From Blastococcus sp. LR1 (GTDB lineage: Bacteria > Actinomycetota > Actinomycetes > Mycobacteriales > Geodermatophilaceae), in assembly GCF_020166105.1 (NCBI RefSeq), contig NZ_JAIUJY010000002.1, positions 682,001 through 746,000 of the forward strand: DNA of 64,000 nucleotides, given 5' to 3'. Made by a program: the position numbers and the translations under genes. Below are positions 35,362 through 40,974 of this stretch, piece by piece (position 1 is the stretch's first letter; every line of letters begins with the position of its first letter). Under the pieces are notes generated by a model. The model was given only the letters and a program-made list of their open reading frames with translations. It had not been told where the DNA came from and did no database searches.

Positions 35362-36405
35362 TCAGCGGGTGACGGTGGAGGCGTGCTCGTTGGTGCCGGC
35401 GGCGAGCCGCTCGCGCTGCGGGAGAACGACGTACTTCGGGTCCTTGGTGCTGGCGATGCCGGCCTCGAAGACGCCGAAGCGGGTGAGCAGCGAACCGGCC
35501 GCGAGAAGCGTTCCTGACGCAATGGCGCCCACCCGGGTGCGCCCGGCGATCGCGGCCAACCCGGCGCCCGCGGCGGTCGTCGTCTTCGCTGCCTGCATCA
35601 GCTTGCCGGGGCGTCCCTCGTGGAACGGCTCGCTCAGGATGCCGTGGTCGGTCTCGACCTTGTGCATCACGGCCAGCTCGATCGCCGCGCCCGTGATCGC
35701 CATCTTCCGGGCCGGTCCGGCCTCGTCGACCGGCACGAAGATCATCGAGATGCCGCCACCGGCAGCCATCGCCGAGCCGCCGAAGACGAACGGCAGCTGC
35801 TTGTAGGCCGCGTGCCACGACGGCACGGCGGTGTTGGCCAGCAGCACGCCGGTGTAGGTGGCCAGCGGCCCGCCGAAGATGGCGGACACGATGCCCCCGA
35901 AGCGCTCGAGCCGCGGGAACCAGCCGAGAAGCTCCACCGCCGCCGTCGCCCCGGCCGCCGCGCTGAACGGCGACAGGATGTAGGTGCCGACCGACAGCGG
36001 CGACGTCAACTTGAACACCCGCAGCATGTGCAGGAACCGCTCGGGCCGGCCGAGGTCGTGCACCAGGGCGACCACCGAGAGCAGCGACCCGATCGCCGCG
36101 GTCATCCGGCCCACGCGGGTCAGCTTCGGCCGGTCGGTGAAGTCGGCGACCGCCGCCAGGATCGACGACGAACCCGCAGCACCGCCGAGGAACAGGTAGA
36201 GCGGCACGTCCGGCGACTTCCACACCGGCGTCTTGACGATCTGCCGGCCGTAGTACGAGGTGAACTCGACGTCGTCGACCATCGCGACCTCGCCGCGGTT
36301 GCGGCCGCCGCCGCGCTTGCGCCGCTTGCCGCTCTTGCGCTGCGTCGCCGGGCCGCTGTCGGCCTGGCGCCACCCCGCACCGGGGCTGGTGATCCCGCCG
36401 GTCAT
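35362..36405 (-). CDS. NrfD/PsrC-type membrane subunit of formate dehydrogenase
   Basis: A 347-residue polytopic subunit that exchanges electrons with menaquinone. The region from about 55 on has eight or so helices, with VPLYLFLGGAAGSSSILAAV at the first and VHDLGRPERFLHMLRVFKLTSPLSVGTYIL typical of NrfD-family quinone-site loops. The first 45 residues are hydrophilic and basic. ATG 36405 follows the stop of the Fe-S subunit by one base. It takes the place of the cytochrome b subunit FdnI of E. coli FDH-N. Confidence 0.9.
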   Translation of the reverse strand: MTGGITSPGAGWRQADSGPATQRKSGKRRKRGGGRNRGEVAMVDDVEFTSYYGRQIVKTPVWKSPDVPLYLFLGGAAGSSSILAAVADFTDRPKLTRVGRMTAAIGSLLSVVALVHDLGRPERFLHMLRVFKLTSPLSVGTYILSPFSAAAGATAAVELLGWFPRLERFGGIVSAIFGGPLATYTGVLLANTAVPSWHAAYKQLPFVFGGSAMAAGGGISMIFVPVDEAGPARKMAITGAAIELAVMHKVETDHGILSEPFHEGRPGKLMQAAKTTTAAGAGLAAIAGRTRVGAIASGTLLAAGSLLTRFGVFEAGIASTKDPKYVVLPQRERLAAGTNEHASTVTR

Positions 36406-36406
36406 G

Positions 36407-37477
36407 TCAGCGCCTCCGCGAGCCGAGGACGGCCGAGACCGCGACCCCGATCATCATCGCCGCAGCCGTGCCGGCCGCCTTCCACATCGCCGGGAGGTCC
36501 CGGGTCGTGACGATCGGGTCCGGCGGCAGGCCGTAGACCTCCGGCTCGTCGAGGAGCAGGAAGAACGCCCCGTCGCCGCCGACGCCGTCGTTCTCGTCGC
36601 GCCCGTACAGCCGCGCCGTCTCCACGCCCTGCGACTTCAGCGTCGCCAGCCGGGCGTCGGCGCGCTCCTGGAGCTCGTCGAGGTCGCCGAACTGGATCGA
36701 CTGCGTCGGGCACGCGGTGGCGCACGCCGGCTGCAGCCCGTCGGTCAGCCGGTCGTAGCACATCGTGCACTTGAAGACCCGGCCGTCGTCCTTGCGCTGG
36801 TCGATGACGCCGTAGGGGCACGCCGCCACGCAGTAGCCGCAGCCGTTGCAGATGTCCTGCTGCACCACGACGGTGCCGAACTCGCTGCGGAACAGCGCGC
36901 CGGTCGGGCAGACGTCGAGGCAGCCGGCGTGCGTGCAGTGCTTGCAGACGTCGGAGCTCATCAGCCAGCGGATCTGCTTGTCCGCGCCGGTCTGGCCGGT
37001 CTGCGGGTCGAACTCGCTGAGCGCCTCGATGTTGAGCACGCTGGCCTGCGCCTTGGCGGTGCTGTCCAGGTCGCCGCTGTCGGGCGCCGGGATGCCGTGC
37101 TCGTGCGGCCGGTCGTCGCCGGGCCGCCCGAAGGTCGGCATCGGCAGGTCGACGGCGCGGGACTGCTCGATGAACGCCACGTGCCGCCACGAGTTGGCGC
37201 CCAGCTGCCCGGTGTTGTCGTACGACATCCCCGACAGGCCCAGGGCGTCCCGCTCACCGTGCGAGTCGTCCATCGGGAGCGTGTTCCACTCCTTGCAGGC
37301 CACCTCGCAGGCCTTGCAGCCGATGCAGACCGAGGTGTCGGTGAAGAAGCCGACCCGCTTCGGGTGGTCGGGCTCGTACCCGGCCTCCTCCGCGACGTCG
37401 GGCAAGGGCCCGAACAGCCGGTTCTTGACGTCGCGCAGGCCACCGAGGCCCGGACTGGCGGAACTGACCGAGGTCAC
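36407..37477 (-). CDS. Formate dehydrogenase iron-sulfur (beta) subunit
   Basis: A 356-residue ferredoxin-like subunit passing electrons from the molybdopterin subunit to the membrane subunit. Four cysteine clusters are visible: CIGCKACEVACKEWN, CKHCTHAGCLDVCPTGAL, CNGCGYCVAACPYG, and CTMCYDRLTDGLQPACATACP, enough for four [4Fe-4S] centres. A C-terminal helix (AAGTAAAMMIGVAVSAVLG) anchors it as in FdnH. It is 25 bases downstream of the alpha gene. Confidence 0.94.
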   Translation of the reverse strand: MTSVSSASPGLGGLRDVKNRLFGPLPDVAEEAGYEPDHPKRVGFFTDTSVCIGCKACEVACKEWNTLPMDDSHGERDALGLSGMSYDNTGQLGANSWRHVAFIEQSRAVDLPMPTFGRPGDDRPHEHGIPAPDSGDLDSTAKAQASVLNIEALSEFDPQTGQTGADKQIRWLMSSDVCKHCTHAGCLDVCPTGALFRSEFGTVVVQQDICNGCGYCVAACPYGVIDQRKDDGRVFKCTMCYDRLTDGLQPACATACPTQSIQFGDLDELQERADARLATLKSQGVETARLYGRDENDGVGGDGAFFLLLDEPEVYGLPPDPIVTTRDLPAMWKAAGTAAAMMIGVAVSAVLGSRRR

Positions 37478-37502: not shown

Positions 37503-40500
37503 TCATGAGATCGTCGAGCCCTCTCCGGCGTCGGCGGCGACCGGGTCGCGGCCGTTCACGCCGACCTTCCCCGACTGCACGCCGGCGCGACGGCGGAAGC
37601 CCTCGACGAACTCCAGCAGCTCCGGCCCCCGCGGACGGCGGCCCGGGATGATGTCGCAGGAGCTGACCTTCGACTCCTGGATGTGGGTGTTGGGGTCCAT
37701 CACGATGCCCAGCAGGTCGTTGGCGGCGTCTCCGGTGGAGATGCCCGCGTAGGACCAGTGGTAGGGCATGCCGATCTGGTGCACGACGGTGCCGTCGCGC
37801 AGCCTGATCGGCCGGACCCGCTCGGTGACCAGCACCTTCGCCTCGATCGCCGTGCGGGCGCTGACCAGCGTCGCGTACTCGTTGTTGGCCAGTCCGCGCA
37901 GCTTCGCGAGCTCCGGGCTGACCTCCACGAAGAACTCCGGCTGGAGCTCGGCGAGGTAGGGCAGTGTGCGGCTCATGCCACCGGCGGTGTGGTGCTCGGT
38001 GAGCCGGTAGGTGGTCACCTGGAACGGATAGACCTCGCTGCGCGCGGGGTTCGCCCGGTTCCACGGGCCCTCGATCATCTCCAGCGTCGGGTTGGCCTGC
38101 TGCTTGTACAGACCGTTCTCGACGACGGACTCGGCCGGCTCGTAGTGCGTCGGCAGCGGCCCGTCGACGACGCCGCCCGGCGCGAACAGCCACGCCTTGC
38201 CGTCGCCCTGCATGACGAACGGGTCGTTGCCGGCCAGCGCGTCCTGCGCCTTGGCACCCTCGGGCGGCACGTAGTCCGGGCGCTTCTTCTTCTCGAAGTC
38301 GGGCACGTCGAGGCCGGTCCACTCACCGGCGGCCTCGTCCCACCACACGTACTTCTTGCGCTCGCTCCACGGCTTGCCGTCGGGGTCGGCCGAGGCGCGG
38401 TTGTAGAGCATCCGCCGGTTCAGCGGCCACGCCCAGCCCCACTCCGAGGCCACCGGGCCCTGCTCCTTGCCCGGCTTGCGCCGGGCGGCCTGGTTGACGC
38501 CATCGGCGTAGACGCCGGAGTAGATCCAGCAGCCGCCGCTGGTCGAGCCGTCGTCCTTCATCTCCAGGTAGGAGTTCAGCAGCTGGCCGTCCGGACCGAA
38601 GCCGTTGATCTCCTGCAGCACGTGCTCGGCGCTGGGCTCGAGCTCGGGACCGTGCGTCGGGTAGTCCCAGGTGAGCTCGAGCAGCGGGAGGTCCCGGGGG
38701 TCCGTGGAGTCCTTGAGCCGCTCGCGCAGGATGCGACCGAGGTGGAAGTAGAACCACAGGTCGCTGCGGGCGTCGTTCGGCGGCTCGACAGCCTTGTGCC
38801 GCCACTGCAGCACCCGCTGGGTCTGGGTGAAGGTGCCTTCCTTCTCCACGTGCGTGGCGGCCGGCATGAAGAAGACCTCGGTGCCGATCGTGTCGGGGGC
38901 CATCTCCCCCGTCTCGATCTCCGGGCCCTCCTTCCAGAAGGTCGCCGACTCGATCATCTGCAGGTCGCGGACGACCAGCCAGTCGAGGTTGGCCAGGCCG
39001 AACCGGTTCATCCTGCTGTTCGGGTGGCCCACCGTGGGGTTCTCGCCGACCAGGAAGTAGCCGGAGACCTTCCCCTTGATCATGTCGGCGATCGTCCGGT
39101 AGCTGCTGTGGTCGCCGTTGATCTTGGGCAGGTAGTCGAAGGCGAAGTCGTTCTCCGCCGTCGCGTTCTCGCCCCACCAGGCCTTGAGCAGGCTGACCAT
39201 GTACGACTTCTTGTTGCCCCAGAAGCCGGCCTTGCCCTCGGCGTCGGCGACGTACTCCTCGAGCGTCGCGTGCTGCTTCGCGTGCGGCATCGGCAGGTAG
39301 CCGGGCAGCAGGTTGAACAGCGTCGGGACGTCGGTGGAGCCCTGGATGCTGGCGTGCCCGCGCAGCGCCATGATCCCGCCGCCGGGACGGCCGATGTTGC
39401 CCAGCAGCGTCTGCAGGATCGAGCAGGTGCGGATGTACTGCGCGCCGACGCTGTGCTGCGTCCAGCCCACGGAGTAGATCCACGCCGTCGTCCGGTCGCG
39501 GTTGCTGTTGTCGGTGACCCACTTCGCCACCTGCTCGAAGACCTCGGGCTCGACGCCGCAGACCTCGGACACCATCTCCGGGGTGTAGCGGGCGAAGTGC
39601 CGCTTGAGGATCTGGAACACCGAGCGCGGGTGCTGCAGCGTCTCGTCGCGCTTGGGCTTGGCCGCTATCGGCGGACCGCCGCTGCCGGACGCCTGGGCGC
39701 GGTCGGCCGACTTCACGTCGGGGTCCTGGTCGGTCCGCTCCTGCTCGGCGGCCTCGGCCGGCTGGTCGGAGCCCGAGTTCGGCGGCTCCTCCGGCTCGTA
39801 CTGCCAGCTCGCCTCGTCGTACTGCCGGTTCTCGGCGTCGAAGCCGGAGAACAGGCCGTCGAGGTCCTCGGAGTCGACGTACTCCTCGCCCACCAGGGCG
39901 GCGGCGTTCGTGTAGGCGGCGACGTACTCCTTGAAGTACAGCTCGTTGCTCAGCACGTAGTGGATCAGGCCACCGAGGAACGCGATGTCCGTGCCGATGC
40001 GCAGCGGGACGTGCAGGTCCGCGATCGCACTGGTCCGCGTGAAGCGAGGATCGATGTGGATGATCTTCGCGCCGCGCGCCTTGGCCTCACCGACCCACTG
40101 GAAACCCACCGGGTGGCACTCGGCCATGTTCGAACCCTCGATGACGATGCAGTCGGCGTTCGAGAGGTCTTCCAGGAAGTTCGTGGCACCGCCACGACCG
40201 AACGAGGCACCCAGACCGGGCACCGTCGCAGAGTGCTATATGCGTGCTTGGTTCTCGATCTGCACGGCGCCCATCGCGCTGTACAGCTTCTTCATCAGGT
40301 AGTTCTCTTCGTTGTCCAGCGTCGCGCCGCCGAGGCTGGCCAGCCCCATGGTGCGGTTCACGCGCTTGCCGCCGTCCTCCTCCTGCCAGCCCTTGCGGCG
40401 GGCGTCGAGGACGCGGTCGGCGATCATCTCCATCGCCGTGTCGAGCTCCAGGTCCTCCCACTCCGTCCCGAACGGACGGCGGTACTTGACCGTGGTGACG

Positions 40501-40805
40501 CGGGTGGGGCTGGTGACCAGCTGCTTGCTGGCGCTGCCCTTGGGGCACAGCCGGCCGCGGCTGATCGGCGAATCGGGGTCGCCCTCGATCTGCGTGATCT
40601 TCTCGTCCTGGACGTACACCTTCTGGCCGCAACCCACGGCGCAGTAGGGGCAGACGCTCTTGACGACGCGGTCAGCGGTGGCGGTACGCGAGACGACGGA
40701 CTCGGTCCCCTTGCTGCGGGCGGCCTTGCCACGCCCCAGCGGGTCCGAGCCGGTCAGCTGGCGGTACACCGGCCAGCTATCGAGCCAGGTCTTCACCCCC
40801 AGCAC
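37503..40805 (-). CDS. fdhA: Selenocysteine formate dehydrogenase alpha subunit, UAG recoded as Sec
   Basis: A molybdopterin enzyme oxidising formate to CO2. Read through one in-frame TAG (40236-40238), the frame gives 1100 residues, close to the family's length. The N-terminal [4Fe-4S] site is C52, C55, C59, C87 (CPYCAVGCGQ...CPKG). The TAG is codon 190, in the context NQARI-[stop]-HSATVPGLGASFGRGGATN, exactly where E. coli FdnG has selenocysteine (position 196 there). After it the protein continues NMAECHPVGFQW and the Mo-bis-MGD domains. A bSECIS-like hairpin follows the codon. UAG-directed selenocysteine is documented in Geodermatophilus and Blastococcus. Start GTG 40805 (GGGTGG upstream) or GTG 40796. 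No twin-arginine signal is seen, so a cytoplasmic catalytic side is likely. Annotated naively it would appear as two genes, 40239-40805 and 37503-40223. Confidence 0.93.
40206..40238 (-). promoter_or_regulatory. bSECIS element with UAG selenocysteine codon
   Basis: On the minus strand TAG is followed by 11 bases and then a hairpin: GGTGCCC (40224-40218), loop GGTCT (40217-40213), GGGTGCC (40212-40206). The seven pairs include two G-U wobbles. From memory of the E. coli fdhF element, the SelB-recognised loop has GGUCU at the same distance from the codon (bases 22-26 counting the codon as 1-3). The codon context TAG-CAC parallels UGA-CAC there. Confidence 0.85.
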
Positions 40806-40867: not shown

Positions 40868-40974
40868 TGCGGTGATCACTTCGTGCCTGGCGGCGGCGCC
40901 GTTCATGATCACCTCGGGCGCACCGGGGCGTCGGCGCGGGTCGAGACCCCGATGGACCCGTGGTGATCACCGCA
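40868..40974. promoter_or_regulatory. Three GTGATCAC-type palindromes between fdhA and the EAL gene
   Basis: GTGATCAC occurs at 40872-40879 and 40963-40970, with ATGATCAC at 40905-40912. The outer two lie in a 12-base inverted pair (TGCGGTGATCAC and its complement). The sites sit in the 239-base space between two divergent operons, so a shared regulator or a long-range hairpin is possible. Confidence 0.4.

Follow-up and report, generated by a model that had tools for sequence, protein, structure and literature searches.

The in-frame TAG of the formate dehydrogenase (FDH) alpha gene in Blastococcus sp. LR1 is almost certainly a selenocysteine codon written as UAG, read by a tRNA-Sec with anticodon CUA through local SelB/SECIS decoding, after a single switch of codon that spans the lineage. 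We analyzed a stretch of 64,000 nucleotides (G000:C2:682001-746000; the window), in which this gene occupies positions 37503..40805 of the minus strand. Two open reading frames, 40970-40236 upstream and 37503-40223 downstream, share one frame. Reading through the TAG (40236..40238, minus strand; residue 245 when the frame is counted from 40970) gives a single frame of 1155 residues in which the TAG is the sole stop. The read-through product matches the NCBIfam model for actinobacterial formate dehydrogenase, NF041513, at positions 2-1067 of 1067 (1916 bits; cut-off, 1400 bits), and its score of 952 bits against TIGR01553 is above the curated cut-off of 814. It is of the FDH-N/O type, with Molybdop_Fe4S4, Molybdopterin, and Molydop_binding domains. 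Thus, the original prediction that the TAG is the only break in a full-length alpha frame was borne out. The frame is open as far as a GTG at 40970; translation probably starts from the GTG at 40805 (VLGVKTWLDSW...), because the NF041513 match begins six residues later.

The codons before the TAG (minus strand, 40238-40236) are ...GAG AAC CAA GCA CGC ATA, and those after it are CAC TCT GCG ACG GTG CCC GGT CTG GGT, giving the peptide context NQARI-U-HSATVPGLG. The residue at the TAG corresponds to the selenocysteine of FdnG, as had been proposed for the site. The two partner subunits were expected to be intact and codirectional, and they are: the genes for the beta (iron-sulfur) subunit (36407..37477) and for an NrfD-type membrane subunit, the putative FDH gamma (35362..36405), follow the alpha gene on the minus strand. 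The former carries Fer4_11 and scores 182 bits against TIGR01582, below the cut-off of 334.7 for that model, and the latter scores 42.6 bits against Pfam NrfD and 38.9 bits against NrfD_2.

A search of the whole genome for a tRNA-Sec with anticodon CUA and for selA, selB, and selD had been suggested as a check, and we found all four clustered within about 6.5 kb. The tRNA-Sec(CUA) gene (G000:C1:593838-593929) matches Rfam RF01852 over all 91 positions with 65.8 bits (cut-off, 47 bits). It has the anticodon loop CUCUAAA, a long variable arm, discriminator G, and an encoded CCA, and it is placed between selAB and selD. Searches with the models for SelA, SelB, and SelD (TIGR00474, TIGR00475, and TIGR00476) gave scores above cut-off for selA (L009:7009-8343; 415 bits), selB (L009:5267-7018; 288 bits, with a SelB winged-helix domain), and selD (L009:10752-11759; 390 bits), the last with Cys rather than selenocysteine in its own active site. 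In 84 kb of the genome, UAG ends about 4 of 43 genes called by a crude gene caller, and the rest end in TGA. Elsewhere in the genome, then, UAG is an ordinary stop. Since UAG still ends ordinary genes, selenocysteine decoding must be local, with SelB and a SECIS set against release factor 1 (RF1).

A SECIS hairpin lies directly after the UAG (40196..40235, minus strand), with the stem GGUGCCC/GGGUGCC and the apical loop GGUCU. In the FDH selenoprotein genes of Escherichia coli, the SECIS is likewise found immediately downstream of the selenocysteine codon, and its apical loop is also GGUCU. The minimum free energy of the 40 bases after the codon is -17.6 kcal/mol (z, -2.1), modestly better than that of shuffled sequences, and folding energy by itself is weak evidence for a SECIS. 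Covariation gives strong evidence. The loop is flanked by a Val and a Gly codon whose third bases, both four-fold degenerate, are able to pair in 81/81 genes, through the combinations G-U, C-G, U-G, G-C, and U-A. When the wobble positions were shuffled, a mean of 40.3 genes paired and 81 was never reached. With distinct windows only, 11/11 paired, against a shuffled mean of 5.1, and 11 was reached in 1 of 10,000 shuffles; as the sequences are related, the shuffle figure is not a strict probability.

To follow the codon in relatives, we compared FDH homologues at 80 named loci, 69 from Geodermatophilaceae and 11 from other actinobacteria. The family set comprises Blastococcus, Geodermatophilus, Modestobacter, Klenkia, Goekera, Trujillonella, and metagenome-assembled genomes, some of them filed under other names. 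All 69 family loci have TAG at the selenocysteine site, whereas all 11 others (Amycolatopsis, Gandjariella, Kibdelosporangium, Actinosynnema, Actinopolymorpha, and Rhodococcus) have TGA; a sense codon occurs at this site in none of the 80. FDH-like genes of the basal genus g7 have TGA at the corresponding site. The closest homologues of the FDH in the window are those of Blastococcus, with 94% identity to that of sp. TF02A-35.

By the standard code, the TAG is a real in-frame stop, and a GTG five codons on could serve as a start for the downstream open reading frame. This would be explained if the FDH gene were decaying and the TAG were a nonsense mutation or a sequencing error, and we consider that explanation extremely improbable. 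It is already refuted by the 69 relatives, every one of which has TAG at this residue. Moreover, the sequence after the TAG differs from that of locus L013 at 33, 24, and 106 first, second, and third codon positions, respectively, among 910 codons; this divergence by codon position shows that purifying selection acts downstream of the TAG. The copy in the window has no further disabling changes, both partner subunits are intact, and the genome has a matching tRNA-Sec with the selenocysteine machinery. Codon conservation together with purifying selection rules out an FDH pseudogene. These results uphold the prediction that the TAG is a natural selenocysteine codon rather than a nonsense mutation. 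The in-frame GTG (40223) could also permit reinitiation and the production of two polypeptides. There is scarcely any chance of this, as a single enzyme model, matched end to end, takes in the residues before and after the TAG, and the wobble covariation after the codon is at the RNA level and fits a SECIS, not reinitiation.

Pyrrolysine is the other amino acid to consider at this UAG. The anticodon CUA would suit it, and ARAGORN labels the gene tRNA-Pyl(cta) (L001:1497-1592, minus strand). However, tRNA-Pyl has no long variable arm, and the CUA tRNA, which has one, fits the tRNA-Sec covariance model along its whole length and lies among the sel genes. The ARAGORN label is a mislabel of tRNA-Sec. 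In addition, UAG is found at Sec/Cys catalytic sites of three unrelated families, and the FDH homologues outside the clade carry UGA. The architecture and gene context of the tRNA rule out its reading as tRNA-Pyl, and we regard insertion of pyrrolysine into the FDH as highly implausible.

For selenocysteine insertion at the UAG, we propose the following route. SerRS would load serine onto tRNA-Sec(CUA), as in other bacteria, and SelA, using selenophosphate from SelD, would turn the Ser-tRNA into Sec-tRNA. SelB, bound to the SECIS just after the codon, would then bring the Sec-tRNA to this one UAG, where insertion would beat RF1, and the FDH of this strain would contain selenium.

We then asked how widely the CUA anticodon is distributed. 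When 115 genomes of the family were searched with a tRNA-Sec pattern, nine genera showed CUA in all of their matched genomes; the anticodon was UCA in three basal genera (g5, g6, and g7), which are represented by fragmented assemblies. The anticodon stem was altered along with the anticodon, from a U-A to a C-G pair. In a SelA tree of 26 rows, a single branch (support, 100/100) separates all CUA rows, which adjoin g6 and g7, from the rest; one switch explains the data. The tree is consistent with a single exchange of the selenocysteine codon, UGA for UAG, that the whole lineage would have made after splitting from the basal genera. At the level of the class (395 genomes), the remaining clear matches to tRNA-Sec are UCA, except for one odd second copy with ACA. 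This tRNA-Sec-like gene (L154:9986-10077, plus strand; 66.8 bits) belongs to an actinobacterium outside the family (G390), which also has a normal UCA tRNA-Sec (L155); an ACA anticodon would read the Cys codon UGU. As a separate observation, in one relative (G110) the selA-selB-tRNA-Sec(CUA) cluster occurs twice on contig C255, complete in both places (L156 and L157), with about 59 kb between the two.

Besides FDH, two unrelated families have TAG at a selenocysteine site in the relatives. All in-frame stops listed for UGSC-family genes are TAG; at the UGSC loci that were read, the TAG is at the U of UGSC, and the other copies read have Cys there. Genes of the CFYU AhpD-related family have TAG at the U in six UAG-Sec genomes (L220-L225). 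Our search of the LR1 genome found neither family with a stop, neither being present, and its AhpC/TSA-type genes have no in-frame stop. FDH may therefore be the sole UAG selenoprotein of this genome, going by the UGSC, AhpC-type, and CFYU searches. This genome gives one case of UAG-Sec, and further cases come from relatives.

UAG-directed selenocysteine was reportedly confirmed by 75Se labeling or mass spectrometry in the 2016 work of Mukai et al. A CUA tRNA-Sec with UAG in FDH, UGSC, and AhpC has been described for Geodermatophilaceae (PMC5330540, citing Mukai et al. 2016), and the recoding claim is repeated elsewhere (PMC10778597). The prediction was correct that UAG-Sec is established in Geodermatophilus and Blastococcus (PMC5330540). 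The published system and the one described here belong to the same family and very probably the same genus, and they share a CUA tRNA-Sec, UAG in FDH, and a SECIS; nothing of substance differs for this FDH gene. Because of this precedent, described in 2016-17, the finding in the window is correct and already known rather than new. Our analysis adds the family-wide anticodon census, a SelA tree that fits one origin of the switch, a relative that carries tRNA-Sec genes of both the CUA and the UCA type, and the CFYU AhpD-related UAG family, which is not named in PMC5330540 (FDH, UGSC, and AhpC are listed there). E. coli FdnG/FdoG are of the same enzyme family and have the same selenocysteine position, but they use UGA and tRNA-Sec(UCA), whereas the gene in the window, of the actinobacterial subtype NF041513, uses UAG and tRNA-Sec(CUA). 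Pyrrolysine recoding (PylRS/tRNA-Pyl) has the UAG codon and CUA anticodon in common with this system; however, it has its own tRNA architecture and charging, works without SelB or a SECIS, and is best known in methylamine methyltransferases. A 2013 survey of pyrrolysine counted Geodermatophilus obscurus as a doubtful candidate for tRNA-Pyl (PMC3639795). These data confirm that an entire bacterial lineage has fixed a natural change of its selenocysteine codon, and they show why annotation pipelines would break the FDH gene in two and take its tRNA for a pyrrolysine tRNA. The map of a single switch, with UCA sister genera and a candidate two-codon relative, offers a place to study how a selenocysteine codon changes.

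That relative is Geodermatophilus sp. LHW52908 (G059), which has its own CUA tRNA-Sec inside selAB/selD and TAG in its FDH and UGSC genes. Its contig C17 also carries a second tRNA-Sec, with anticodon UCA (L141:1169-1263, minus strand; 81.8 bits), 0.3 kb from an AhpD-related (TIGR01926-type) gene with an in-frame TGA at CFY[U]MESH (L141:1579-2157, plus strand). The selenocysteine site of this gene agrees with NCBIfam NF041238 (AhpD_rel_CFYUT), the match itself being below cut-off, and a SECIS for the gene is plausible. Gene calls for the 20 kb surrounding the UCA tRNA-Sec include no second selA or selB. It is quite possible, and we suggest it tentatively, that this genome uses two selenocysteine codons at once, CUA/UAG and an acquired UCA/UGA, with one selA/selB pair probably serving both. 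The island has transposases of four families and a GC content of 70%, compared with 75-77% for the remainder of the contig. It is less likely that the UCA tRNA-Sec comes from contamination, since 2.5 kb of the same contig align full length to several Geodermatophilus genomes with 81-84% identity; the backbone of the contig is Geodermatophilus. The UCA tRNA and the UGA gene may instead reflect an assembly error, or they may be a dead fragment. If the two-codon reading is true, Geodermatophilus sp. LHW52908 would be a genome with two selenocysteine codons.
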